From contig CAMTMX010000013.1 of assembly GCA_947073495.1 (NCBI GenBank), positions 1-45,941 of the forward strand: DNA of 45,941 nucleotides, in the 5' to 3' direction. Under the pieces are notes generated by a model. That model did not search any database and had not been told where the DNA came from. It was given only the letters and a program-made list of their open reading frames with translations. A program made the translations under genes and the position numbers. The DNA is from an uncultured Porphyromonadaceae bacterium. Lineage in GTDB: Bacteria; Bacteroidota; Bacteroidia; Bacteroidales; Muribaculaceae. Shown one piece after another: positions 1,975 to 31,754 of this stretch (positions are counted from its first letter, which is position 1; each line of letters begins with the position of its first letter).

Positions 1975-4179
1975 TCAGTTGGAATGGAGCATCAGCACAC
2001 GCGATGCGTAATCATTTCTCTTGTTCCAGTCTACATTGTGGCTGAGCGGCATTTCAAGTCCGTTCGACATCAGAAATCTACCCGTAAATGTCTTTCCTTC
2101 GTAAGGAAGAGGTTCATTGTCCACGCGGTTCAATTCTGTAACCGTATACAGCTTGTCCGGATCAAGACCTGCCATAGTAACACGCGGCAACTGCTGGTTG
2201 ACAAACTGCTCAGTCTTCCACCAATAATAGACAGCATCCTTCTTGTCGGGAGAAACATACATCAGAGATGCCGCTCCCTTATGGTCGTAAGGTGAAAGCA
2301 GACGATAGATGTCACCTTGCTGAACGATAGGACGTATCTTCTTATAGTCGGCGATAGCCTTGCGGGTCTGTTCCTTCTCCTCATCGGTCATATTCTTCGG
2401 CTGAATCTCCATCCCAAGACGTCCGCTCATGGCCACGTCAGTACGATACTTCAGAGGGACAATGCGGTTGGTCTGATGATTGGGGGAAGCCGAGATGTGC
2501 GAAGCCATAGCGATTGCCGGGAAGAAATAACTTGTGCCCCACTGCATATAGATTCTCTGGAGGGCGTCAGTGTTGTCACTAACCCAAAACTCATCGAAAT
2601 AAGGGAGGATTCCCCAGTTGGCACGACCGCCGCCGCTTGCACATGCCTGAATCGTAAGGTCGGGATATTTCTCACGGATACGTTGAAGAGTCTTTTCCAA
2701 TCCCTTATGATAGTCTATGTAAAGATGACTCTGATTGTCGGCTGTCTGATACTGAGAACCGTGGTTCATAATCGGGGCGTTGGAATCCCATTTGATATAA
2801 TCGATCTCAGGATAATTGGTCATGAGTGTGTCGACAACATTGAAAACGAGATCCTGAACCTTCGGATTGGCAAGGTCAAGCACAAGCTGGGTACCCCCGC
2901 GACCTTCCACTGCATCTCTGTTCGGAGCCTTGACAATATATTCGGGATGTTTCTCATAAAGCTCCGATTTGGAATTTGTCATTTCCGGTTCGATCCAGAT
3001 TCCGAATTTTATACCCAGGCCGTCAGCTGTGTTGCAAAGACCCTTGATTCCGTGAGGAAGTTTGGTAGTATCCACTGTCCAGTCGCCGAGAGATGTGGAG
3101 TCGTTGTTGCGCGGATATTTCACACCGAACCATCCGTCGTCCATAACAAACAGTTCGCCACCCATATCGGCGATATCCTTCATCATCTGGGTCATCCCCG
3201 CCTCGTTGATATCGAAATAAACACCTTCCCAGCTGTTGAGGAGCACCTTGCGGAGCTTGTCGCCATTTGCAAGACGGTAATCCCTGCCCCACTTGTGGAA
3301 ATTGCGGCTGGCACCACCAAGACCTTCCTCAGAATATGTCAGGGCAAGTGCGGGAGTCTCGAATTTCTCACCTTTCTTGAGATTATACGACGAGTTTTCC
3401 TCATTTATCCCTGCAAAGAAATGATGATAATCGCTGTCGTCGGTGTCAAACATAAGTTTGTAGTTGCCTCCATAGCAAAGTGCCGCGCCTATCACACGTC
3501 CGGTCTGCTCCTGAGCCTTGCCGTCGAGCGACATCATCACCTCGGCATGTGAGGTATGCGAGTTGCGGGCACCGTCTTTATTCTTTATCACCTTAAGGTT
3601 ATGCGGCAGCGGAGCCTCCTCCACTTTTCCCTCGTTTGCCCAAGATCCGTAAAGTTGCGACACATGCACGTCACTTCTACGAATCGGCAGATAACCAGAC
3701 ATGAAGCGGGTCAGTTTCACGGGCTTCTTCTCATCATGGCTGGTGACCGTCCAGGTCTCGATCACATCGCTTCCAGGATAAGTGCGATAATTCACGTCGA
3801 TATAAAAGGGATACACCTTATCCGTCATGGTCACTGTAGTGACCTCCGCACCGTTTGCCTCTTTCATGGTCTTGACATCAGCTACCGCCATGTCGAGAGT
3901 CATGTTGCCGTCGGCATGCACCGCGCTCATAGCAGCCTCCTTTTCAGGCCACAGACCATACACCGGGTAAGCGTTAAATGTGTTGCCCCCCGTTGAGGTT
4001 ATGTTTTTAATGTCGTTATCTCCCAATGCAGAGCCATAATATACAAATTTCAACGGCTCCCCTTTCACGGCATCGAGGATAAGGGATGACTTAGGTGTAG
4101 ACACATGGACTGTCTCTGCAAACATCGGTATTACCGCCACTGAGGCTGTCAACAATGATAGTAAGGTTAGTTTTCCCAT
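1975..4179 (-). CDS. Secreted GH36 alpha-galactosidase
   Basis: The 734-aa protein has a signal peptide (MGKLTLLSLLTASVAVIPMFA) and probably removes alpha-1,6-galactose side chains from galactomannan or raffinose-type sugars in the periplasm. The GH36 core is clear: WEGVYFDINEAGM at about 317, MDDGWFG at about 346, the nucleophile Asp of YIKWD at about 465, CASGGGRANWG at about 513 and the acid/base motif SDNTD at about 534. The length fits the family. I chose the ATG at 4179 because the upstream TTG at 4209 would fall inside the -7 promoter box. The gene diverges from the AraC regulator and shares a putative operator with the mannan operon, which links it to mannan use. Confidence 0.93.
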   Translation of the reverse strand: MGKLTLLSLLTASVAVIPMFAETVHVSTPKSSLILDAVKGEPLKFVYYGSALGDNDIKNITSTGGNTFNAYPVYGLWPEKEAAMSAVHADGNMTLDMAVADVKTMKEANGAEVTTVTMTDKVYPFYIDVNYRTYPGSDVIETWTVTSHDEKKPVKLTRFMSGYLPIRRSDVHVSQLYGSWANEGKVEEAPLPHNLKVIKNKDGARNSHTSHAEVMMSLDGKAQEQTGRVIGAALCYGGNYKLMFDTDDSDYHHFFAGINEENSSYNLKKGEKFETPALALTYSEEGLGGASRNFHKWGRDYRLANGDKLRKVLLNSWEGVYFDINEAGMTQMMKDIADMGGELFVMDDGWFGVKYPRNNDSTSLGDWTVDTTKLPHGIKGLCNTADGLGIKFGIWIEPEMTNSKSELYEKHPEYIVKAPNRDAVEGRGGTQLVLDLANPKVQDLVFNVVDTLMTNYPEIDYIKWDSNAPIMNHGSQYQTADNQSHLYIDYHKGLEKTLQRIREKYPDLTIQACASGGGRANWGILPYFDEFWVSDNTDALQRIYMQWGTSYFFPAIAMASHISASPNHQTNRIVPLKYRTDVAMSGRLGMEIQPKNMTDEEKEQTRKAIADYKKIRPIVQQGDIYRLLSPYDHKGAASLMYVSPDKKDAVYYWWKTEQFVNQQLPRVTMAGLDPDKLYTVTELNRVDNEPLPYEGKTFTGRFLMSNGLEMPLSHNVDWNKRNDYASRVLMLHSN

Positions 4180-4206: not shown

Positions 4207-4251
4207 CAAAATTATATCTTTAATATATCATTACTACACACTATTTTATCA
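4207..4251 (-). promoter_or_regulatory. Promoter and candidate AraC operator of the GH36 gene
   Basis: On the minus strand, TAATTTTG (4207-4214) fits the Bacteroidales -7 consensus TAnnTTTG. There is no TTTG at the expected -33 position (GTAG instead), which suggests the promoter depends on an activator. The 13-mer TGATAAAATAGTG lies at 4239-4251, exactly 24 bp upstream of the -7 box. The same 13-mer sits 24 bp upstream of the -7 box of the mannan operon. Confidence 0.7.
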
Positions 4252-4255
4252 TTTT

Positions 4256-4284
4256 ATTCCACTTAGATGTTAAATTAGTGGAAT
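4256..4284. promoter_or_regulatory. Inverted repeat in the GH36/AraC divergent region
   Basis: ATTCCACT (4256-4263) and AGTGGAAT (4277-4284) form a perfect 8-bp inverted repeat with a 13-bp spacer, between the GH36 promoter and the regulator gene. It may be a second or autoregulatory binding site. It adjoins the 13-mer operator on the minus strand. Confidence 0.5.
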
Positions 4285-4396
4285 CCCGCTTTAAAATTGA
4301 ATTATTTTTTCTACCTTTACACATGTTATATTAAGTTTCTTGATCCTCTGCTTTCGCAAGCGAATGTTGAATTATAAAGTTAACCCTAAAAACGCC

Positions 4397-5284
4397 ATGG
4401 CTACAGCTCAAAGAGAAATCATAACCGAGATCACTCCTCTTTCCGACAAGGACTGTTTCTATTTTGTAGACAGATATAAGGAGCAATTCACCTACCCCAT
4501 TCATCGCCACGAGGATTATGAACTGAATTTTGTTGCAGACGCTCCCCTCGCCTCCCGCGTGGTGGGTGATTCTGTTACCGAAATAGGTTCTCTCGACCTG
4601 GTTCTCGTGGGTCATAACATTGAACACGGATGGGAGCAACATCAATGCACATCGACAAAAATACATGAGATCACCTTGCAATTTTCGAAAAATCTCTTTG
4701 GTGACACTTTCCTTGGGAAAACCCAGATGGCTCCTATAAAAGATATGCTTGAAAAATCGAGCAACGGCATCGCTTTCTCCCAAAACACAATCCTGAAGGT
4801 GTATCATCTTCTCGACGAACTGACAAAAACCCCTGATAATTTCCACCGCATGCTCCTTCTGATGCGGATTCTTTATGAACTCGCTACGGCGCCTGATTCA
4901 AAAATACTATCATCCTCTTCATTTGCCAAGGCTCCAGCCCGTACAGACAGCCGGAGAATTCTTAAAGTAAAGGAATATATCGACCAAAATTATCAGGAAG
5001 AGATACGCCTCTCCGACCTTGCCGACATGGTGGGGATGACTGCCACATCGTTCAGCCGTTTCTTCAGATTGCGTACAGGAAGGCACGTCTCTGAATATAT
5101 GATCGACGTGCGGCTTGGTCATGCCACCCGCGCACTTGTAGACAGCACTGATTCAATTTCCGAAATAAGCTATGCCTGTGGATTTAACAATGTCAGCTAC
5201 TTCAACCGCATTTTCAAAAAGCGGAAAGGGTGCTCCCCAAAAGAATTCCGGGAGCTTTATAAGCGCAACCGACTGCTCGTCTAA
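4397..5284 (+). CDS. AraC-family transcriptional regulator of the mannan locus
   Basis: A 295-aa cytoplasmic regulator. The N-terminal half is a cupin-like sugar-sensing domain (FTYPIHRHEDYELNFV near residue 30). The last 100 residues carry the double helix-turn-helix of AraC proteins (IRLSDLADMVGMTATSFSR and ISEISYACGFNNVSYFNRIF). I start at the ATG at 4397 (MATAQREI); an in-frame ATG at 4364 and a TTG at 4340 also exist. It is divergent from GH36 and precedes the esterase and mannanases. A 13-bp motif shared by the GH36 and mannan-operon promoters is its likely target, which makes it a candidate local activator. The ligand is unknown; a manno-oligosaccharide is an inference. Confidence 0.9.
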   Translation: MATAQREIITEITPLSDKDCFYFVDRYKEQFTYPIHRHEDYELNFVADAPLASRVVGDSVTEIGSLDLVLVGHNIEHGWEQHQCTSTKIHEITLQFSKNLFGDTFLGKTQMAPIKDMLEKSSNGIAFSQNTILKVYHLLDELTKTPDNFHRMLLLMRILYELATAPDSKILSSSSFAKAPARTDSRRILKVKEYIDQNYQEEIRLSDLADMVGMTATSFSRFFRLRTGRHVSEYMIDVRLGHATRALVDSTDSISEISYACGFNNVSYFNRIFKKRKGCSPKEFRELYKRNRLLV

Positions 5285-5396
5285 TCATGAGACAACCGAT
5301 TCCCGGTCAAGGATCACCCTACGACCCCGAAATTTTAAGGAACGCGCTCTAAACTTGAACTTTCTTGTCAATTGTTTGCATTATTATTGATTTCTA

Positions 5397-5427
5397 TTTG
5401 ACAGTTAGACATTTCTGCATATCTTTG
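5397..5427 (+). promoter_or_regulatory. Promoter of the first acetylesterase gene
   Basis: TTTG (5397-5400), a 19-bp spacer and TATCTTTG (5420-5427) match the Bacteroidales primary sigma consensus exactly, 21 bp before the ATG at 5449. Unlike the GH36 and TIG-operon promoters, it has a complete -33 element and no TGATAAAATAGTG motif. Confidence 0.85.
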
Positions 5428-5448
5428 TAAAAAAATCAGACCCTGACC

Positions 5449-6888
5449 ATGAAATATAAATTTATTATCCTTTCATCAATTCTCTCCACAGCCATCTCCG
5501 GACAGGCTAAAATAGAAATGCCAAACATTTTTACCGACAACATGGTTATCCAGGCGGATACTGCAGTCGCCCTGTGGGGCAAAGCAAATCCGGGAGCCAC
5601 TGTCATGACTCAAGGTTCATGGGGAGAATCTGCATCAACAAAAGCAGGGAAAGACGGCAAATGGAAACTGACAATTAAAAGTCCTGCTCCATCCTACGAT
5701 CCGTTATCTATCATTGTCTCCGATAAATCAGACAACGACACCCGCAAACTTGACAACGTGCTCGCCGGTGAAGTGTGGATCGCTTCGGGACAAAGCAACA
5801 TGGAGATGCCTCTGAGAGGATTCTGGCATCAACCCGTGGAAGATGCCGGCGAGCAAGTGATGTTCTCACGCAAGCTTGGGAAAGGGATCCGTTTTGTCAA
5901 TGTGCCCAAAGCTGCAAGCTATGAACCTAAAGACAATTTCGAAGGCGCATGGATGGAATGCACACCTGCCACAACCGGAGAACTATCAGCAGTGGGATGG
6001 TATTTCGCAACCGCATTGCGTGATATGCTTGATGTCCCCGTGGGGATCGTGTCTTGCGCATACGGCGGATCTAAAGTGGAAGGATGGGAACCGGCGGAGC
6101 TGATTGCCAAATATCCTGACCGCAACATGGAGGCGGAGAAAAACAATCCTGATATAAATGAATGGGAAAGGGTCGGAGTGATGTATAATGCGATGCTTCT
6201 CCCTATCGCAGGTTATACCGCACGTGGATTTCTTTGGAACCAGGGGGAATCCAATGTCGGCGGACACGACTATTATCCAACCCGTCAGACTGAAATGGTG
6301 CACCACTGGCGCGATCTCTGGAGTAACCACGGAATGCAATTCTATTTTGTAGAACTTCCCGGCTGGGTGTATGGAGGAGTGGACAACACCGAAGCGGCTC
6401 TCTTCCGTGAAGCGCAACACAGAGGTGCCGATGTGGCTGACGGCAGGCATATCATATGCACTTCCGATCTCGTCTATCCCGACGAGCCCAATGACATACA
6501 TGCCCGCAACAAGCGCCCGATAGGTCAACGCCTTGCCGCCGCGGCTGCCACCTATTCATATGGAATCCCGGGAGTGCCCCACACATATCCTACATTCAAA
6601 GAAATGGAAAACCATGGTGACCACGCCATCCTTTCTTTCGACAACGCCTGGAACGGTTTCTGTCCTAACGAAAATCTTGAAGGTTTTGAAGTGGCAGGTG
6701 AAGACAGGGTGTTTCATCCTGCCCAGGCAGATATCGACCTAAGCAAATTGACGATTAAAGTTTCATCTCCGGAAGTAAAAGATATCAAATCTGTCAGATA
6801 CTGCTTCAAAAACTTTGCTATCGGGAAAGTCCACGACAACTACGGAATGCCTCTCATCCCCTTCCGTACAGACAACTGGGACAATTAA
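5449..6888 (+). CDS. Secreted sialate O-acetylesterase-type SGNH esterase
   Basis: A 479-aa protein with an N-terminal signal peptide. It has the block GEVWIASGQSNMEMP (nucleophile Ser116), the family motif VSCAYGGSKVEGWEP at about 200, WNQGESN at about 262 and the His-containing NDIHARNKRPIGQRLA segment at about 350. Family members remove O-acetyl groups from sugars. In this setting the substrate is more likely acetylated mannan or glucomannan than sialic acid, because no sialic acid genes are present; that is inference. A related but divergent enzyme is encoded at 37275-38720. The stop codon lies inside a 7-bp tandem array. Confidence 0.88.
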   Translation: MKYKFIILSSILSTAISGQAKIEMPNIFTDNMVIQADTAVALWGKANPGATVMTQGSWGESASTKAGKDGKWKLTIKSPAPSYDPLSIIVSDKSDNDTRKLDNVLAGEVWIASGQSNMEMPLRGFWHQPVEDAGEQVMFSRKLGKGIRFVNVPKAASYEPKDNFEGAWMECTPATTGELSAVGWYFATALRDMLDVPVGIVSCAYGGSKVEGWEPAELIAKYPDRNMEAEKNNPDINEWERVGVMYNAMLLPIAGYTARGFLWNQGESNVGGHDYYPTRQTEMVHHWRDLWSNHGMQFYFVELPGWVYGGVDNTEAALFREAQHRGADVADGRHIICTSDLVYPDEPNDIHARNKRPIGQRLAAAAATYSYGIPGVPHTYPTFKEMENHGDHAILSFDNAWNGFCPNENLEGFEVAGEDRVFHPAQADIDLSKLTIKVSSPEVKDIKSVRYCFKNFAIGKVHDNYGMPLIPFRTDNWDN

Positions 6889-6936
6889 CAATTAACAATT
6901 AACAATTAGTAATTAGTAATTAGCAATTACTAATAA
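6881..6936 (+). repeat. Heptanucleotide array over a stop codon
   Basis: Eight 7-bp units run without interruption: four ACAATTA, two GTAATTA, one GCAATTA and one CTAATAA. The TAA stop of the acetylesterase (6886-6888) lies in the first two units. The same heptamer family recurs at 14643 and 42070. Confidence 0.9.
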
Positions 6937-7208
6937 AGAATAATTAAGTCGATTATAAGTGAATAAACCCCTTATCCACTTTAATCTCATTAATTTAAGT
7001 TTCGCAAGCTCACTTAAGGTTTGAAGGTTAAGGGGTTAAAGGGTTACATTTCCACATGATTCTTAAAGAAACCTGAAATCTATCCACAATTGTAGATTAA
7101 CCTTTTAACCTTATAACCTCATAACCCTCAACTTTCGCATGCGAAAGTTGAATCATTAACCTCTTTAATCTTATTAACCTCTTTACCAAATTTAACCACC
7201 ATAAATCA
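6937..7208. other. AT-rich intergenic region with a 24-bp perfect palindrome
   Basis: No gene is seen between the esterase and the GH5 mannanase. The region holds purine- and pyrimidine-biased runs built from GGTTAAGG/CCTTAACC-like words (7008-7045 and 7098-7129). It also holds a perfect palindrome at 7128-7151 with core ACTTTCGCATGCGAAAGT. No TAnnTTTG promoter was found, so the GH5 gene may be transcribed from the esterase promoter or from an unrecognised one. Confidence 0.6.
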
Positions 7209-8522
7209 ATGTCAAAAAAAATCAAATTCTCGATATTATTGTTCATCATGGCAATCGCAAATTTCACTGTTCGAGCCAATGATTTTGTAACCGTGTCTGA
7301 GAACGGAGATTTCATTCTTCGCAACCATCCTTATAAGTATGCCGGCACTAATTTCTGGTATGGCGCAATACTTGGATCCAAAGGCGAAGGGGGCGACCGC
7401 CAACGTCTTGCCGAAGAGCTTGACTCCCTCCAGGCTATAGGCATTGATAATCTTCGAATACTCGCCGGAGGTGACGGCAACCGCTCGATACCTTCCCATA
7501 TAGAGCCTACTCTTCAGACCGAGCCCGGTGTGTATAATCAAGATATTCTCGAAGGGCTCGATTATCTCATCGCCGAGCTCGAAAAGCGTGACATGCGTGC
7601 CGTAATCTACTTAAACAATGCCTGGGAATGGAGCGGCGGATATGGCACATATCTTGAATGGACAGGTCACGGAGAAGCACCCCTCCCTCTTCGCGACGGT
7701 TATGAAAATTATATGAAATATGTATCTAAATTCATAACTGACGATAAAGCAAAGGAACTTTATGCCAACCATGTCCGAAATATGGTGACCCGTATTAATT
7801 CAATAACCGGAAAACCTTATGCTGAATCTCCGGCAATCATGTCGTGGCAGATTGCCAACGAACCTCGTTGCTTCGATCCGGCAAACAAGGAAGCTTTCTA
7901 TAATTGGCTTGTCGATACCGGCAAACTGATCAAAAGTCTTGACCCCAACCATCTGGTATCCACAGGCAGTGAAGGCATGTGGGGATGCGAAGGCGACATC
8001 GACCTTTGGGCACGTATCCACAATTCCGATGCAATCGATTATGCCAACATTCATATCTGGCCTTACAACTGGAACTGGGTAAAACCTGAAAGCCTTGCGG
8101 AAGACCTTCCAAAGGCAATTGCCAATACGAAAGATTACATATCATCCCACCGTGCTTTGACAAAGAAGCCTCTTGTTCTTGAAGAATTTGGATTCCCAAG
8201 GGAAAATATGGAAATTGCAAAAGGTTCGTCAACAGCAAGTCGTGACGCTTATTATGAATACGTGCTAAATCTTATGGTCAACAGCAATGACCTTAACGGA
8301 ATCAATTTCTGGGGATGGGGAGGTAATGCAGCCCCCGCACATAAAACCTGGCAACCAGGTGATCCTTACACCGGCGATCCGGCACAGGAAGATCAAGGTC
8401 TGAATTCAGTGTTCTCATCAGACCGTTCCACTGTCGACATCATTAAAAAAGCGAATCAAAAGCTTAATCAAAAGAGACAATGCACAAAATGCAACCAACA
8501 TTGTGCAACCAGTGAGAAATAA
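7209..8522 (+). CDS. GH5 endo-beta-1,4-mannanase, secreted
   Basis: A 437-aa protein with a signal peptide (about residues 1-23). The catalytic barrel follows: GTNFWYGAILG near 46, acid/base Glu218 in QIANEPRCF, IHIWPYNWNW near 281 and nucleophile Glu326 in VLEEFGFPRE. The QxANEPR and IHxWxxNW motifs fit GH5 mannanases (subfamily 7). It would cut the mannan backbone outside the cytoplasm. The extreme C-terminus is odd: after IIKKANQKLNQ a basic tail carries CTKCNQHC, unusual in this family. A terminator follows 90 bp downstream. Confidence 0.9.
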   Translation: MSKKIKFSILLFIMAIANFTVRANDFVTVSENGDFILRNHPYKYAGTNFWYGAILGSKGEGGDRQRLAEELDSLQAIGIDNLRILAGGDGNRSIPSHIEPTLQTEPGVYNQDILEGLDYLIAELEKRDMRAVIYLNNAWEWSGGYGTYLEWTGHGEAPLPLRDGYENYMKYVSKFITDDKAKELYANHVRNMVTRINSITGKPYAESPAIMSWQIANEPRCFDPANKEAFYNWLVDTGKLIKSLDPNHLVSTGSEGMWGCEGDIDLWARIHNSDAIDYANIHIWPYNWNWVKPESLAEDLPKAIANTKDYISSHRALTKKPLVLEEFGFPRENMEIAKGSSTASRDAYYEYVLNLMVNSNDLNGINFWGWGGNAAPAHKTWQPGDPYTGDPAQEDQGLNSVFSSDRSTVDIIKKANQKLNQKRQCTKCNQHCATSEK

Positions 8523-8611
8523 TAAAAATCTCTGATAATATATTATGCATTATCAGTTGATTATTAATTATCCATTAATCTCCCTTAAGGTATAAAAGAT
8601 TGGATCCCCAT

Positions 8612-8645
8612 GGTGTGTCTTTCAATTGAAGACACACCTTTTTAT
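8612..8645 (+). terminator. Intrinsic terminator after the GH5 gene
   Basis: GGTGTGTCTT (8612-8621) pairs with AAGACACACC (8629-8638) and is followed by T-rich TTTTTATTTT. It separates the esterase/GH5 unit from the next operon. Confidence 0.85.
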
Positions 8646-8711
8646 TTTCAGAGTAATCCTTTTTCAATCCGTTATTTCAAAAATAATTCCATTTTTTCGA
8701 TTTTTGAAATT

Positions 8712-8759
8712 ATGTGATAAAATAGTGCAAGTTTTTACTTTTTTATCACATTAACTTTG
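8712..8759 (+). promoter_or_regulatory. Promoter and operator of the mannan operon
   Basis: The -7 box is TAACTTTG at 8752-8759 and no -33 TTTG is present. ATGTGATAAAA (8712-8722) and TTTTATCACAT (8741-8751) form a perfect 11-bp inverted repeat with an 18-bp spacer. The 13-mer TGATAAAATAGTG at 8715-8727 is identical to the one upstream of GH36 and stands at the same 24-bp distance from the -7 box. The rest of the 8523-8895 gap holds the GH5 terminator and a leader of about 130 nt. Confidence 0.72.
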
Positions 8760-8895
8760 CAACCGAAAGCATGGAAGACGATTGTTTGAATATGTTAACC
8801 CGACATCTAATTCAATCTTATTTCCCTATCAAGACCTATAACCTACCATGTCAGAATCTCAGATTAAAGTGAACCTGTCAAAGCAACATGCAAAA

Positions 8896-9636
8896 ATGAA
8901 AAGTAAACTCACATATAGTTTTATCGTCCTTTCCGGTTTGCTGCTTGCCTGCGGAATGGCATCGCAGAGCGAGACAGATGCTGATAAGGACAAGGGGGCG
9001 ACCCCGGTCATCAAATATGCCCGCACATATAACGCTCAGACCGAAGGTTCTCCAATAGTCAGCGCGCCATTGGGTTCACGCCTTGAATTTGTGGGTGACA
9101 ATCTCGGAGATGTGCAGCAGATATGGTTCAACGATCAGAAAGCCGAACTCAATCACTCAACCATTAAAAGCCACTCGATTATTGTCGACATACCTGACGC
9201 CACCCCGGGGGAAATGACCAATATGGTCCGTTTCATAACATCTAAAGGGACAATGGTGGATTATCCTTTCAATGTCTCTGTTCCCGCCCCAAGAGTAGAT
9301 GCCTTGACATGTGGATATGCTGATGCCAGAATGGTTGTAACTATTTCGGGGGCTTATTTCGCTGATGATCCCAATGCACCTCTGACAGTGACATTCGCTG
9401 ACAACTTACCGGCAACTATCAAAGACATATCTCAGGAGGCCCTTGTGGTTGAAGTGCCTGACGGTGCAAAAGAGGGAGCGGTGAGAGTGACATCGATCTA
9501 TGGATCAGGAGAAAGTTCTTTCCACTATCTTGACACCCACAACACGATTTTGGGGTTCGGAGGGATTACAGATCTCGGCATTAACACACCATCAATTGAA
9601 TATCAACGCAGTCATCTAATTTTAAATAATGAATAA
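8896..9636 (+). CDS. Truncated IPT/TIG-domain surface lipoprotein
   Basis: A 246-aa lipoprotein (lipobox LLLACG, Cys19) with two Ig-like IPT/TIG domains. The first is at about residues 35-130 (SAPLGSRLEFVGDNLGDVQQIWF) and the second at about 131-215 (ARMVVTISGAYFADDP; GAVRVTSIYGSGES). Proteins of this layout in mannan loci are surface glycan-binding proteins whose TIG domains carry a C-terminal binding domain. Here the protein stops about 25 residues after the second TIG (FGGITDLGINTPS...), so the binding domain seems lost. An upstream in-frame ATG at 8848 exists, but the lipoprotein signal favours 8896. It is the first gene of the operon and the next start follows within 10 bp. Confidence 0.8.
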   Translation: MKSKLTYSFIVLSGLLLACGMASQSETDADKDKGATPVIKYARTYNAQTEGSPIVSAPLGSRLEFVGDNLGDVQQIWFNDQKAELNHSTIKSHSIIVDIPDATPGEMTNMVRFITSKGTMVDYPFNVSVPAPRVDALTCGYADARMVVTISGAYFADDPNAPLTVTFADNLPATIKDISQEALVVEVPDGAKEGAVRVTSIYGSGESSFHYLDTHNTILGFGGITDLGINTPSIEYQRSHLILNNE

Positions 9637-9646
9637 GGTTAATTTC

Positions 9647-10741
9647 ATGAATAGGTTAATAATTCCCGCTGTAGCCGCGTGCCTCCTCGTCGGAGGTGCC
9701 GGTTGCGGTCAGAAGACAAAAACTCAGGATGAACCTGTAAAAACTCCGGCAGAACAACTGAAAGAAAAACTTTCAGTCTCAATAGAAGAAAAAAAAGTTA
9801 TGTTCGGACATCATGACGATCCGGTATATGGTCATAGCTGGAACGGTGATGGAGTCTCCGACATGGTCGCCACCTCCGGTGCCTATCCGGCAGTGATGAG
9901 TTGGGATCTCGGAGCTCTCGAACTTGGCAAACAGGCAAATCTTGACGGTGTCCCATTTGATTCAATCCGCAAACAGGCTATTGCCCAGGACGCACGCGGA
10001 GGTATCAACACCTTCAGCTGGCATCTCTATCATCCGATCACAGGGGCTGACAGCTGGAACACTACCGACTCCCTTGCCGTGAGCAACATGGTCAACACTC
10101 CAGAAGGGAAAGAGGCTTACCTCAAACAACTTGACATGGTAGCGGATTTCTTCCTTTCGCTCAAAGATAAAGACGGCAACGATATCGGCGTGATTTTCCG
10201 TCCTTGGCATGAACACACCGGAAGCTGGTTCTGGTGGGGAACAGGGAATTGCACACCTGAAGACTACAAAGCCCTCTGGACCATAATGCGTGAAAAATTT
10301 GACAAGCGTGGTGTCGATAATGTGGTATGGGCTTACTCTCCCGACCGCTGCACCACAGCCGAACAATATATGGCACGCTATCCTGGCGACGAATATGTGG
10401 ATATTCTCGGTGCCGATGTCTATCATTTCAATGGTGCAGAAGGGACAGACGCCTATAAGGAAGCTGCCGGCAAAACCCTCTCTATCGCCTCGGAAGAAGC
10501 TAAAAAACGGGGAAAAATTGCAGCATTCACAGAGACCGGTCTGGAATCCATAACAATCGATGACTGGTATACCTCCACCCTTCTCCCTATCGTGAAATCA
10601 TACCCTGTGGCATACGTCACTGTCTGGCGTAACGCCCACGACAAACCTCAACATTTCTACGTCCCCTTCCTGGGACACCCTGCGGAAGCGGATTTCCGTG
10701 AATTTTGTGCAGACCCCTCAATCAAAGTAATCAAAAAATAA
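9647..10741 (+). CDS. manA: GH26 endo-beta-1,4-mannanase lipoprotein
   Basis: A 364-aa lipoprotein (lipobox GGAGC, Cys20) of family GH26. The acid/base Glu189 lies in FRPWHEHTGSWFWWG and the nucleophile Glu296 in FTETGLE; MFGHHDDPVYGHSWNGDG near 52 and GADVYHFNG near 255 are further family motifs. Enzymes in this position release mannobiose from mannan. The order GH26, GH130, transporter, epimerase matches the B. fragilis mannan operon (ManA, mannosylglucose phosphorylase, transporter, epimerase). I start at 9647 because it gives the compact lipoprotein signal; ATG 9629 would overlap the previous stop. Confidence 0.92.
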   Translation: MNRLIIPAVAACLLVGGAGCGQKTKTQDEPVKTPAEQLKEKLSVSIEEKKVMFGHHDDPVYGHSWNGDGVSDMVATSGAYPAVMSWDLGALELGKQANLDGVPFDSIRKQAIAQDARGGINTFSWHLYHPITGADSWNTTDSLAVSNMVNTPEGKEAYLKQLDMVADFFLSLKDKDGNDIGVIFRPWHEHTGSWFWWGTGNCTPEDYKALWTIMREKFDKRGVDNVVWAYSPDRCTTAEQYMARYPGDEYVDILGADVYHFNGAEGTDAYKEAAGKTLSIASEEAKKRGKIAAFTETGLESITIDDWYTSTLLPIVKSYPVAYVTVWRNAHDKPQHFYVPFLGHPAEADFREFCADPSIKVIKK

Positions 10742-10743
10742 TT

Positions 10744-11910
10744 ATGGATATATTCGACATTCGCAAAAATCAGGTGATGGCTGAATATGAAAGCCTCATA
10801 ACCCGCAAAAATATTCCTCTCGAAGGGAACGGCATCTACACACGTTATGCAAACCCTATCGTGACGGCTGCAATGGTGCCTCCGTTCTGGAAATACGACT
10901 TCAATCGTGAAACCAACCCTTATTTCATGGAGCGTATCGGTGTAAACGCCACTCTCAATTCCGGAGCAATCAAATGGAACGGAAAATACGTATTGATGGT
11001 GCGTATGGAGGGTTATGACAGGAAGTCGTTTTTTGCAATCGCCGAGAGTCCGAACGGAATCGACAATTTTGTTTTCCGCAACCATCCGGTGACAATGCCT
11101 GAGGATAAGATTCCGGGCACCAACATCTACGACATGCGTCTCACCGCTCATGAAGATGGCTACGTCTATGGGCTCTTCTGTGTGGAGCGTCATGACGACC
11201 GTTTCCCCGGGGATCTTTCCGCAGCCACAGCATCTTGCGGCATTGCACGCACAAAAGACCTTGAAAACTGGGAACGTCTCCCTGACCTCGTGAGCAAAAG
11301 CCAGCAACGCAATGTTGTGCTTCATCCTGAATTTGTAAACGGAAAATACGCACTCTACACACGTCCGCAAGACGGCTTTATCGACACAGGAAGCGGCGGC
11401 GGCATTGGCTGGGCATTAATAGACGATATCACCAACGCGGAAGTGAAAGAAGAGATTATTATCGATCCCCGTTATTATCACACCATCAAGGAAGTGAAAA
11501 ACGGAGAAGGTCCGGCACCTATCAAGACCACAAAAGGATGGCTGCACCTCGCTCACGGAGTAAGGGGATGCGCTTCAGGTCTTCGTTATGTGCTTTATAT
11601 GTATATGACATCGCTTGAGGAACCTTGGAAAAAAATTGCCTCGCCAGGCGGCTATTTCATGGCTCCTGTTGGGGAGGAATACATGGGCGATGTAATGAAT
11701 GTGCTATTCTCAAACGGCTGGATTGCCGATGAAGACGGGAAAGTGTTCATCTACTATGCCTCGTCCGACACCCGCATGCATGTAGCGACATCCACAATCG
11801 ATCAACTGGTGGACTATTGTCTCAACACTCCCGAAGACAAACTGACCACTGCAGAATCCGTCAGGACTCTCAACGCACTAATCGACTCCAATCTCTCGTT
11901 AGGAATATAA
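10744..11910 (+). CDS. GH130 4-O-beta-mannosyl-glucose phosphorylase
   Basis: A 388-aa cytoplasmic enzyme without a signal peptide. It converts 4-O-beta-D-mannosyl-D-glucose and phosphate into mannose 1-phosphate and glucose. The catalytic Asp is near residue 130 in GTNIYDMRLTAH. LENWERLPDLVSKSQQRNV and the Arg/Ser-rich phosphate region (TRPQDGFIDTGSGGGIG) are typical of GH130 subfamily 1, and length and motifs fit the B. fragilis enzyme. It begins 2 bp after the mannanase stop. A 16-bp-arm hairpin follows it before the transporter gene. Confidence 0.92.
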   Translation: MDIFDIRKNQVMAEYESLITRKNIPLEGNGIYTRYANPIVTAAMVPPFWKYDFNRETNPYFMERIGVNATLNSGAIKWNGKYVLMVRMEGYDRKSFFAIAESPNGIDNFVFRNHPVTMPEDKIPGTNIYDMRLTAHEDGYVYGLFCVERHDDRFPGDLSAATASCGIARTKDLENWERLPDLVSKSQQRNVVLHPEFVNGKYALYTRPQDGFIDTGSGGGIGWALIDDITNAEVKEEIIIDPRYYHTIKEVKNGEGPAPIKTTKGWLHLAHGVRGCASGLRYVLYMYMTSLEEPWKKIASPGGYFMAPVGEEYMGDVMNVLFSNGWIADEDGKVFIYYASSDTRMHVATSTIDQLVDYCLNTPEDKLTTAESVRTLNALIDSNLSLGI

Positions 11911-12008: not shown

Positions 12009-13448
12009 ATGACTCTACTAAAGCGAAAAATCGGTTACGGCTTCGGCGACATGGCATCGTCGATGTTTTGGAAAATTTTCAGTTATTACCTGCCGTTCTT
12101 TTATTCCAACGTCTTCGGTTTATCCCTGATCGACGCCGGAATACTGGTGATGGTGACACGAATATGGGACGCCGTATCAGACCCCATGATGGGTATAATC
12201 GCAGACCGTACAAACACCAGGATGGGTAAATATCGACCCTACCTCTTATGGTTTGCAGCTCCGTTTGCAATATGCGGCATACTGCTCTTCACCACGCCCG
12301 ATTTCTCGTATGCCGGCAAACTCATCTGGGCTTACGTGACATACGTGCTCATGATGACCGTCTACACCGGCATCAATGTCCCCTACGGAGCCATGCTCGG
12401 AGTGATAACCGACAGTCCGAAAGAGAAAACCGTATTCTCCTCTTTCCGTATGCTCTTCGCTTATGCCGGCTCGTTTATAGCCCTTGCGGCATGGGAACCA
12501 CTTTGCAGCCTGTTTGAGTCGAGTATGGGGATGTCTCCCGCCTCGAGCTGGCAGATGGCAATGGTAGTGATCGCAGCGGCATGTCTCGTGCTCTTCATCA
12601 TCTGCTTCTCGATGACCAAAGAGGTGGTGAAGACAAAGAGTGTGGTGAGTGTGGGCAACGACTTCAAGGCACTGCTGAAAAACCATCCCTGGTGGATACT
12701 GATCGGTGCGGCGCTCTGCTTCAACCTGTTCAACACGGTGAGAGGTGCGTCAGTGGCATACTTCTTTGCTGATGTGATCGGTGCCGATGCCAACATGTGG
12801 CTTTTCGGGCTATCTGTCCTGTTCTATTCCGGACTGTTCCTCAGCATCGGCGAGGTGGCGAATATGGCGGGAGTGGCGTTGGCGGTTCCTATCGTGGCAA
12901 GACTTGGCAAGAAGCCTACATTCATTATGGTCAACATGTGTCTCGTGGTTTTAAGTGTAGCATTCTTCTTCATACCCGTCAATGCTGTTGGTTTCTTCTT
13001 CATGCTCCTGTGTCAGATTTTCATTTCGATCCTGACAGGTATCATGTCCCCCCTTGTATGGGCTATGTATGCCGACGTGGCAGACTATTCGGAACACCGT
13101 TTCCATACAGCCTCCACCGGACTGATCTTCAGTTCATCTTCCATGGCTCAGAAATTCGGAGGTGCCATCGGCGGTGCGGCGGTGCTTTGGCTACTCAGTG
13201 CCTGCGGATATGTGGCACAGACAGGCGACAGCGCCATCGGGGCTCTCATGCAGCCGCAGGCAGCTATCAATTGTCTTTGGGCTCTGATGAGCTTTATCCC
13301 CGCATGTGTGGCATTGATTGCCGCTATTGCAATGTATTTCTATCCGCTCACCACTGAAAAGGTGTCGACTATCGCGGAAGAACTTCGCATACGCCGCAAC
13401 AATCCGGCTGCCGACGTGGCAGACAACTTTAACGATATTAACGGTTGA
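12009..13448 (+). CDS. GPH-type (MFS) mannobiose/oligosaccharide symporter
   Basis: A 479-aa inner-membrane protein with about 12 transmembrane helices. The N-terminus KIGYGFGDMASSMFWKIFSYY and the loop DAVSDPMMGIIADRTNTRMGKYRPYLL are diagnostic of the glycoside-pentoside-hexuronide:cation symporter family. Placed between the phosphorylase and the epimerase, it should carry mannobiose (or other short mannosides) from periplasm to cytoplasm; the substrate is inferred from context. The epimerase ATG follows 2 bp after its stop. Confidence 0.9.
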   Translation: MTLLKRKIGYGFGDMASSMFWKIFSYYLPFFYSNVFGLSLIDAGILVMVTRIWDAVSDPMMGIIADRTNTRMGKYRPYLLWFAAPFAICGILLFTTPDFSYAGKLIWAYVTYVLMMTVYTGINVPYGAMLGVITDSPKEKTVFSSFRMLFAYAGSFIALAAWEPLCSLFESSMGMSPASSWQMAMVVIAAACLVLFIICFSMTKEVVKTKSVVSVGNDFKALLKNHPWWILIGAALCFNLFNTVRGASVAYFFADVIGADANMWLFGLSVLFYSGLFLSIGEVANMAGVALAVPIVARLGKKPTFIMVNMCLVVLSVAFFFIPVNAVGFFFMLLCQIFISILTGIMSPLVWAMYADVADYSEHRFHTASTGLIFSSSSMAQKFGGAIGGAAVLWLLSACGYVAQTGDSAIGALMQPQAAINCLWALMSFIPACVALIAAIAMYFYPLTTEKVSTIAEELRIRRNNPAADVADNFNDING

Positions 13449-13450
13449 TT

Positions 13451-14650
13451 ATGAATCAAGCTGAAATAACGAGATTCGCTGATGAATTGATCGGCAATCT
13501 CAACGAAAATATTCTCCCCTACTGGCTTAAACTTCAGGATCCGGAAGGAGGTTTCTATGGAAGAAAAGACTCCGACGAAATCTTGCATCATGAAGAGCCG
13601 AGAGGCACTATTCTGAACGCCCGCATCCTTTGGACATTCGCGGCAGCCGCACGCTTCACCGGCAACCGCACCTATGCCGAAGTTGCAATGCGCCAATACC
13701 GTTACTTCTCACAACATTTCATCGATCCTGAATTTGGAGGCTGCTATTGGTCCATCAATCCCGACGGCACTCCTTATGATACTAAGAAGCAATTCTATGC
13801 AATTGCTTTTTCAATCTACGCATTGAGCGAGTATTATATGCTCACGGAAGACAAGGGTGCCATTGATCAGGCAATCGCACTCTTCAGAGTAATAGAGAAA
13901 CATAGCCGTGACCGCATCAAGGGGGGGTATTTCGAGGCAATGACGAGAGATTGGCAACCTATCGCCGATATGCGTCTGAGCGACAAAGACCTCAACTCCT
14001 CCAAGACAATGAACACGCATCTTCATATCCTGGAAGCCTACACCAATCTGCTTCGGGTGTGGAGAAGTGACGAATGTCTTGAAGCTACGGCCTCTCTGCT
14101 TGAACTATTTAACGACACGATCGTAGACACCAAGACCGATCACATGGGTCTTTTCTTCGACGATGACATGCACCGTGTGGACAGCGACATATCTTACGGA
14201 CACGACATCGAGGCGTCATGGCTTATGCTTGAGGCTGCGCAGGTTGTCGGCAATGAAGAGTTGACTGAAAAGACACTGGATGTAACAAAACGCCTTGCGA
14301 TAGCCGCCCTCGAGGGTATGCAGCCGGACGGCTCGATGATCTACGAACTTCATGGAAACGGAAAAAAAGATGAAGAGCGTCATTGGTGGGTACAAGCCGA
14401 GAATATAGTCGGATTGACATATCTCGCCAAGTTCCACGATATGCCCGAAGCTCTTGACAAAGCATGGCAATGCTGGGAATACGTCAAAGACAATATCGTC
14501 GACAACAAAAACGGCGAATGGCACTGGAGCCGTCTCCCCGACGGGTCAGTCAACCGCCGTGACGACAAAGCCGGTTTCTGGAAATGTCCCTACCACAATT
14601 CCCGCATGTGTCTCGAAGCCACCAAGCAAATCACTTCAATGAGCAATTAG
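13451..14650 (+). CDS. Cellobiose (mannobiose) 2-epimerase
   Basis: A 399-aa cytoplasmic (alpha/alpha)6-barrel enzyme of the AGE family. It epimerises the reducing-end sugar of beta-1,4-disaccharides, turning mannobiose into mannosylglucose, the substrate of the GH130 enzyme. Catalytic-type His residues are in MNTHLHILEAY (190/192), YGHDIEASWL (251) and KCPYHNSRMC (382), with HWWVQAE at 311. Length and motifs match characterised cellobiose 2-epimerases and separate it from GlcNAc 2-epimerases. A TTG at 13445 is an in-frame alternative, but ATG 13451 is preferred. The stop codon lies in a heptamer array. Confidence 0.92.
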   Translation: MNQAEITRFADELIGNLNENILPYWLKLQDPEGGFYGRKDSDEILHHEEPRGTILNARILWTFAAAARFTGNRTYAEVAMRQYRYFSQHFIDPEFGGCYWSINPDGTPYDTKKQFYAIAFSIYALSEYYMLTEDKGAIDQAIALFRVIEKHSRDRIKGGYFEAMTRDWQPIADMRLSDKDLNSSKTMNTHLHILEAYTNLLRVWRSDECLEATASLLELFNDTIVDTKTDHMGLFFDDDMHRVDSDISYGHDIEASWLMLEAAQVVGNEELTEKTLDVTKRLAIAALEGMQPDGSMIYELHGNGKKDEERHWWVQAENIVGLTYLAKFHDMPEALDKAWQCWEYVKDNIVDNKNGEWHWSRLPDGSVNRRDDKAGFWKCPYHNSRMCLEATKQITSMSN

Positions 14651-31723: not shown

Positions 31724-31754
31724 CAAAATTAGGACACAAAAAGGGGGTGTCAAA
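31724..31754 (-). promoter_or_regulatory. Promoter of the ECF sigma gene
   Basis: On the minus strand TTTG (31751-31754), a 19-bp spacer and TAATTTTG (31724-31731) match the consensus exactly, giving a leader of about 65 nt before the ATG at 31652. Confidence 0.85.

Follow-up and report, generated by a model that had tools for sequence, protein, structure and literature searches.

At the Escherichia coli AraC and RhaS promoters, transcription is activated by the class II mode, with direct-repeat half-sites that adjoin the -35 element or cover it. In Bacteroidales, the motifs of hybrid two-component systems (HTCS) have been predicted to be tandem direct repeats averaging 21 bp, and the sites of the HTCS_Man regulators (HTCS_Man-1, -2 and -3 of Bacteroides thetaiotaomicron) are given as 16 bp long with a 5-bp spacer (PMC3878776; this and the other papers cited by accession are used from excerpts of their text). 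The motif of the Bacteroides RhaR regulator is a predicted direct repeat of 21-bp periodicity (PMC3870299), and a promoter consensus with -7 and -33 elements has been described (PMC7366714). The locus considered here lies in contig CAMTMX010000013.1 (assembly GCA_947073495.1) of an uncultured Porphyromonadaceae bacterium, placed in the Muribaculaceae by the GTDB lineage; the whole stretch analysed, 45,941 nt, is called the window below. In it, one 13-bp motif precedes both a gene for a glycoside hydrolase of family 36 (GH36) and a beta-mannan operon, on either side of a gene for an AraC-family regulator (araC). We consider it highly probable that the 13-mer is the proximal half of a tandem operator for this protein, which has a predicted cupin domain, and that the protein would act by class II activation of a beta-mannan regulon.

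A motif at a fixed distance from two -7 boxes

The motif, TGATAAAATAGTG, is present as exact copies at 4239-4251 (minus strand) and 8715-8727 (plus strand), and exactly 24 bp (N24) separate it from a -7 box of the TAnnTTTG type at both promoters: TAATTTTG on the minus strand, in front of GH36, and TAACTTTG on the plus strand, in front of the TIG-GH26-GH130 operon. Both facts had been pointed out in an earlier note, made by a model from the sequence alone, and hold base by base. So does its remark that the -33 TTTG is missing: in a listing of all such pairs of the window, no TTTG stands 18-22 bp ahead of either -7 box. The note had set against them three promoters with a perfect -33 element (5397, 23243 and 38854); these are present, but so are six further TTTG-N18-22-TAnnTTTG pairs, among them one at 31754 on the minus strand and some lying within coding sequence.

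The window has 37 TAnnTTTG sites, and these two form the sole pair with a 13-base common run at an equal offset, the next longest run being of 8 bases. Dinucleotide shuffling never produced a 13-base run (0/2000) and produced one of 12 bases in 11 of 2000 cases. Over the 3.5 Mb genome, the 13-mer with at most one mismatch gave 12 matches versus 15 for the reversed control, and none of 10 one-mismatch copies had a TAnnTTTG 24 bp beyond it; the only exact copies are those of the window. The composite GATAAAATAGTG-N24-TAnnTTTG, with up to three mismatches, gave 6 matches versus 7 for the control and was exact only at the two window places, so that the genome-wide search suggested in the note does not show it to be frequent at random distances. 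The idea of a wider regulon in this genome was considered and rejected, composite matches beyond the two window sites being at the control level.

The 13-mer as one half of a direct repeat

The motif singled out by the note is real, but it is part of a larger site whose upstream half had been overlooked. This emerged from 60 further regions bearing an AraC orthologue (about 45-88% identity), taken from genomes of the same genus and family and annotated by tblastn with the window proteins; L013, L014, L016 and similar loci duplicate L129, L177 and L131, and only the latter set was counted. When the spacing was allowed to vary from 20 to 28, the best match to the 13-mer reached at least 9/13 in 19 of the 35 regions behind the GHx gene, all of them at N24; one further region, L189, has its match at N25. 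A 12-base core (at least 10/12) gave 33 matches at N24 in the 61 AraC-bearing regions, versus 47 across 60 other spacings, a peak whose height is partly circular because the core was derived from the sites of the free-spacing scan. Eight of these 47 fall at N45 (i.e. 24+21) and six at N32. An N24 site is found in 28 of the 61 regions.

When 32 distinct sites of the related regions were aligned on the -7 box, columns outside the selection proved conserved: A(-43) in 32/32, T(-47) in 26, G/A(-46) in 29, A(-22) in 29 and C(+8), directly after the -7 box, in 32. The proximal AGTRnnA, which ends at -22, recurs as TRnnA ending at -43. There is thus, in these 32 sites, an upstream half-site 21 bp off in the same orientation, i.e. 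a direct repeat whose units are two DNA turns apart, and the 13-mer is for that reason the promoter-proximal half of a double site. The operator consensus is about AAAAAGTGnAA...nGATAAAAWAGTRTCAt, and half-sites in direct repeat some 21 bp apart are what is expected of an AraC-family operator.

The two window sites were then scored with an independent matrix made from 27 sites (effective number 19), from which the window, its sister L129 and all GH36 sites had been excluded; the background promoters are those of the same regions as the sites. The operon site (-7 box at 8752) came first of the 37 in the window, with a score of 22.1 and rank 25 of 956 over all regions, and the GH36 site (-7 box at 4214) second, with a score of 3.5 and rank 79 of 956. 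The score of the distal half was reached by 2.1% of background positions (n = 873) for the operon site and by 0.7% for the GH36 site. Counted from TAnnTTTG, positions -36 to -22 belong to the proximal half, and this is the place of the -33 TTTG (N19-21). A TTTG at N19-21 is present in 0 of 71 site promoters versus 60 of 358 other TAnnTTTGC positions, a difference that arises partly by construction, the matrix covering those bases. An activator site set over a degenerate -33/-35 element is the class II arrangement, and class II activation fits because of this position and of the single spacing of the proximal half; the same two features favour the activator-dependent class of promoters that the note had proposed. 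The features are collected in Table 1.

Table 1. Positions of the promoter elements, sites and genes discussed (window coordinates unless a locus is named)
Feature	Position	Strand	Basis or remark
GH36 alpha-galactosidase, target 1	1975..4179	-	Pfam Melibiase 1.2e-112; ATG from sequence
-7 box TAATTTTG, GH36 promoter	4207..4214	-	Window sequence
Proximal half-site, GH36 promoter (holds most of the 13-mer)	4236..4250	-	32-site alignment, independent matrix
Distal half-site AACATCTAAGTGGAA, GH36 promoter, 21 bp upstream, same orientation	4257..4271	-	Alignment, matrix
Weaker site copy facing araC (10/12 to core; 2 mismatches to 13-mer)	4268..4280	+	TACCTTTA, not a full -7 box, 32 bp on
AraC-family regulator, 295 residues from ATG 4397	4397..5284	+	HTH_18 4.8e-23; orthologues in 79/397 family genomes
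SASA-type carbohydrate esterase, conserved neighbour	5449..6888	+	Pfam; promoter at 5397 with perfect -33, no site
Gene resembling glycoside hydrolases (weak GH42 match); conserved neighbour, ahead of the susC promoter in relatives	7209..8522	+	Pfam
Distal half-site TTTCGATTTTTGAAA, operon promoter, 21 bp upstream, same orientation, weaker	8695..8709	+	Alignment, matrix
Proximal half-site, TIG-GH26-GH130 operon promoter	8716..8730	+	Alignment, independent matrix
-7 box TAACTTTG, TIG-GH26-GH130 operon promoter	8752..8759	+	Window sequence
Lipoprotein with a TIG domain, of the surface glycan-binding type; opens target operon 2	8896..9636	+	Start inferred from relative L130
GH26 mannanase	9629..10741	+	Pfam
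GH130 mannoside phosphorylase	10705..11910	+	Pfam
GPH-family sugar:cation symporter	12009..13448	+	Pfam, NCBIfam
Sugar 2-epimerase, cellobiose 2-epimerase type	13445..14650	+	Pfam; NCBIfam EpiA 341 bits, below cut-off 800
Pfam-less, secreted-looking proteins of other loci	L250:2113-3300, L251:8823-10019, L252:8946-9923, L254:8937-10118, L259:8984-9985, L275:8387-9181		

Co-occurrence of the site with the AraC gene

The distribution of the regulator (orthologues at E up to 1e-70) and of the composite site (at most 2 mismatches) was surveyed in 397 genomes of the family, the cross-tables treating the 397-genome draws for AraC, site and GH130 as one set. The site was found in 73 genomes: 61 of the 79 with an AraC orthologue versus 12 of the 318 without (Fisher 5e-43, a value inflated by relatedness), the reversed-pattern control giving 2/79 and 18/318. 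Within the genus of the window the figures are 11/18 versus 6/66 and, among the 82 genomes with a GH130 orthologue, 55/66 versus 3/16; twelve genera have at least one genome that holds both regulator and site. Four AraC-less operons of genus g9, read directly, are devoid of the site (8/12 at most at N24); all four retain GHx-GH26-GH130, and three of them the symporter and epimerase as well. The note had named the AraC gene lying between the two targets as candidate regulator, and both the co-occurrence and these four siteless operons argue for that choice.

The GH36 target is on less firm ground than the operon. It is clear in the window and in some relatives: N24 is the best spacing at the promoters of L131 and L171 exactly, tied best in L129 and third in L170. 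Of the 24 GH36 entries, 20 were scored, the other 4 lacking a TAnnTTTG over 260 bp. The proposal of the note that alpha-galactosidase and mannanase/phosphorylase expression are joined in one regulon is therefore to be divided: the operon target is conserved, but the GH36 target is poorly so beyond close relatives.

Several observations weigh against the regulon as we read it. At GH36 promoters, N24 is in the top 5% of spacings in only 5 of 20 cases, window included; L130, with an 84%-identical GH36, has only a 9/13 match, at N25; and the matrix score of the window GH36 site is modest. No match at threshold was obtained in 18 of the 79 AraC-positive genomes, some of which hold variants (L189, mentioned above, and L206). 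Conversely, in three genomes (G074, G384 and G412) a site is found close to GH130 genes without any AraC hit; in G074 a conserved neighbour stands at a contig end and in the other two the contigs are about 4 kb, so that the AraC gene may be missing from the assembly. Nine more genomes have the site and neither AraC nor GH130. Of the 13 genomes with GH130 and without AraC or site, 11 come from the single genus g9, which means few independent losses. Lastly, half of the site loci found elsewhere (19/38, see below) precede genes outside the mannan query set.

The regulator and its proposed mode of action

The listed araC open reading frame opens with a TTG at 4340; the ATG at 4397 is favoured by the lengths of the orthologues. 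The C-terminal part of the protein is a double helix-turn-helix (HTH_18 as in Table 1; HTH_AraC 7.5e-16), and Pfam gave no match for an N-terminal domain, a kinase or a receiver. A profile of 55 orthologues (L189, which has an in-frame stop, was dropped, and 55 of the 60 remaining proteins were aligned, window included) matches 27 solved sequences, including DNA-binding domains of AraC, XylR, MarA and HTCS proteins. Within the helix-turn-helix part, S239, R240, F241 and F242, and N283, S286, F288 and N289, are invariant in the alignment, in line with one common motif. The predicted structure model (pLDDT 82, pTM 0.61) has a beta-rich, cupin-like N-terminal domain in addition to the helix-turn-helix domains, as would suit the ligand domain of an AraC-family one-component regulator. 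It matched the RhaR regulatory domains 5u93/5u9e with E values of 3.8e-5 to 3.2e-4 (TM by target 0.64-0.68) and, weakly, AraC with D-fucose (2aac, E 1.7e-3); the best fold matches overall were the full-length AraC-family proteins ToxT, CsvR and Rns, at a low TM of 0.37-0.54. The regulator is most likely a cytoplasmic one-component activator of a beta-mannan regulon.

The proposed mechanism would be as follows. Two AraC subunits would sit on the same DNA face at the direct repeat; the downstream one would cover the place of the missing -33 element, 24 bp before TAnnTTTG, and recruit RNA polymerase as in class II activation. The trigger would be the binding of a cytoplasmic manno-oligosaccharide or mannosyl-glucose to the cupin domain. 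Judging from the pathway, the sugar sensed is plausibly mannobiose or mannosyl-glucose that has entered through the GPH symporter and is yet to be processed by GH130 and the epimerase. The genes switched on would be GH36 and the TIG-GH26-GH130-symporter-epimerase operon here, and susC-susD-GH26-GH130 operons elsewhere.

A broader proposition, for which we see the balance as even, is that one cytoplasmic cupin-AraC protein runs beta-mannan use in 12 genera of this gut family, and apparently beyond it, from a double site that is in phase and kept at 24 bp from the -7 box. It would then govern even the outer-membrane susCD, which in Bacteroides are under an HTCS that senses the periplasm; repression of its own gene and control of unlinked genes (phosphomannose isomerase, uncharacterised secreted proteins) may be added to its roles. 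If a cytoplasmic regulator governs susCD, the cell would then decide on the basis of internalised mannosides.

Copies near araC and alternative explanations

Additional copies of the site are frequent upstream of araC: on the plus strand in 21 of 60 regions (100 block shuffles: mean 7.2, maximum 14) and on the minus strand in 20 of 60 (mean 8.1, maximum 16), some of the latter being the GH36 sites themselves; these shuffles preserve base content in 20-bp blocks only. In L135, L196, L198, L205 and L208 a copy in the GH36-araC interval is directed at araC. L148, L181 and L194 each have a copy that adjoins the -7 box of araC or extends over it. The weaker copy of the window that faces araC is possibly, at a suggestive level only, an autoregulatory site. 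A fixed geometry was rejected, the spacing being 32-35 in L140, L195, L196, L198, L205 and L208, 1 in L148 and L181, and overlapping in L194; these copies suggest autoregulation without a single geometry and, because of the varying spacing, it is kept only as a lead. They also bear on an unlikely alternative to activation, namely that the same AraC is mainly a repressor, or a dual regulator, that silences its own gene too, GH36 and the operon firing by derepression. The enrichment of copies upstream of araC, and their placement beside or over its -7 box in L148, L181 and L194, would suit such a role; the evidence on that side is heterogeneous, however, and at the targets the sites replace the -33 box at one spacing, as expected for activation. 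A palindromic operator for a repressor of the LacI, GntR or ROK type was rejected and appears very improbable. An inverted repeat, TGATAAAAtAGT-N10-ACTtTTTTATCA, can indeed be drawn at 8715-8748, with an imperfect right arm (8736-8748, minus strand, 2 mismatches), but this arm is not kept: it is absent in the sister L129, the window GH36 site has no downstream arm, and columns -19 to -8 hold at most 0.5 bit each over the 32 sites while the distal direct repeat is conserved.

That the adjacent AraC gene might be a mere neighbour of the site, and not its reader, is doubtful, to about the same degree as the repressor role. HTCS sites are predicted to be direct repeats on the same 21-bp plan (PMC3878776), the beta-mannan polysaccharide utilization locus (PUL) of Bacteroides ovatus has an HTCS (PMC5217682), and 12 AraC-negative genomes have a match, 3 of them with a GH130 orthologue. 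Against this stand the twelve genera in which regulator and site meet in at least one genome, the joint absence of both from the four homologous g9 operons, and the rarity of HTCS-like genes (E up to 1e-15), which occur in 6 of the 101 examined regions and not in the window; an HTCS was rejected on this count as the linked regulator, and the window regulator itself has none of the domains of the sensor kinase-receiver-AraC fusion that, encoded with a PUL, marks a hybrid two-component regulon. As for a chance likeness of AT-rich promoters, both regions are AT-rich and the one-mismatch 13-mer has its control frequency in the genome; the shuffles, the exact composite at two places in 3.5 Mb, the conservation over 32 sites and the survey of the family genomes nevertheless rule it out, leaving it a negligible probability. 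Operator function for the window AraC, acting as an activator, thus stays our preferred reading.

The mannan operon and its relatives

In the relatives of the same genus (L130, L170 and L131) the site lies directly ahead of susC, followed in L130 by susD, TIG lipoproteins, GH26 and a GH94-type gene. The window promoter from 8716 to 8765 closely resembles that of L170. This susC is absent from the window genome and its sister, and neither has a close mannan SusC elsewhere, the best homologues there being at 38% and 40% versus 61-100% in the three other genomes searched. In these two genomes, the TIG gene comes next after the promoter, with no susC or susD in between (window 8522-8896; compare L130:7606-12634 and L170:13589-18651). 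As relatives carry susC there and the window does not, the 8715 site, now fronting the TIG gene, is the counterpart of their promoter for susC; the simplest reading of the window locus is a loss of susC and susD. The PUL of the window genome has the surface lipoprotein and the enzymes and lacks the transporter pair.

Sites elsewhere

Forty further loci, fetched as matches to the composite pattern or as extensions, were inspected, and the site was present in 38. Genes of the mannan query set follow soon downstream in 15 of the 38 (susCD-TIG-GH26, GH94-GH26-GH130, and AXE1-GH130 or GH26). Eleven of these 15 are off the araC contig, which is no proof of distance because contigs are fragmentary; one shares a contig with araC at a distance of 15 kb, and three are in genomes without an AraC hit. 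In G271, a second site stands 636 kb from araC on one contig, before a protein of unknown family. Two of the 38 sites have distant susC genes next, and two a contig end or a transposase. In L258 (2377-4172), the site follows the GHx gene and a transposase (DDE_Tnp_1) takes the place of susC, which suggests an insertion behind the promoter.

The genes after the 19 remaining sites include a phosphomannose isomerase (L276), a protein with a carbohydrate-binding module (L278) and Pfam-less secreted proteins, two of them beside a mannan cluster (L261, L262), as well as unrelated-looking genes, ParA in L274 and Band 7 in L266, whose sites have two mismatches and may be chance matches. The phosphomannose isomerase gene (1525-2610 in L276) has its site, with 2 mismatches, upstream, on a contig other than that of araC. 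Secreted-looking, Pfam-less proteins of 264-398 residues are the first gene after an unlinked site in several genera (Table 1); these are possibly new mannan-binding or mannan-acting proteins. Pfam assigned families to 3 of 10 genes after unlinked sites in a first set and to 8 of 10 in a second, one of them below cut-off.

Outside the family, 15 loci (L014-L028) were scanned. Two clear sites of this type are present in L018, a Prevotellaceae record, at 2785 and 9793 (minus strand), and L026 has a weak one (9/12). The matches in L014 and L016 are in regions counted under other names, L014 having a 9/12 match in addition, and the remaining loci have none. Given the sites of the Prevotellaceae record, the motif probably predates the family.

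Significance and comparison with known systems

In the titles and abstract beginnings found in the open-licence literature, this pair of regulator and motif is not described, and the excerpts of PMC12125979 and PMC10766802 hold nothing on this regulator. If the regulon is real, it provides a binding motif with an exact promoter geometry for predicting beta-mannan regulons in Muribaculaceae, places a PUL under a one-component cytoplasmic sensor instead of an HTCS, and predicts an inducible promoter of defined spacing; the g9 genomes would then be natural examples of a homologous operon that lacks both the regulator and the site.

Each of the closest systems shares part of this picture. The Bacteroides RhaR (BT3768, a tag from PMC3878776), a one-component AraC-family activator, offers a parallel within Bacteroidales in that it too is tied to a sugar pathway and has a predicted 21-bp direct repeat; it serves the catabolism of another sugar, rhamnose, and the likeness is one of periodicity and regulator type. 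The HTCS regulons of B. thetaiotaomicron have in common with our locus an AraC-type DNA-binding domain and tandem direct repeats of about 21 bp (PMC3878776), but the HTCS_Man proteins are membrane sensor-kinase fusions at alpha-mannan loci, whereas the window protein is 295 residues long, has neither a kinase nor a receiver domain and is encoded among beta-mannan genes. By gene content, the B. ovatus PUL bacova_02087-97 is close (GH26, GH36, mannoglucosyl phosphorylase, symporter, isomerase and SusC/D); its assigned regulator is the HTCS bacova_02097 and not a one-component AraC (PMC5217682). The beta-mannan PUL of Muricauda sp. MAR_2010_75 has GH26, GH130, a symporter and an expressed AraC-type factor, FG28_RS02325; it differs by a GH27 alpha-galactosidase and by an HTCS that is also present, and the AraC likeness is one of type, no binding site being described in the excerpt (PMC9860051).

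With the E. coli AraC and RhaS class II promoters, finally, the regulator shares the cupin plus double helix-turn-helix plan, the sensor domains of AraC and RhaR being matched by fold; the promoter there is of the sigma70 type as opposed to the TAnnTTTG type of Bacteroidetes, and the identity between sensor domains is 11-16% in the fold alignments. As judged from sequence, the kind of regulator is thus known already, and what is new is the predicted beta-mannan regulon of a cupin-AraC protein.

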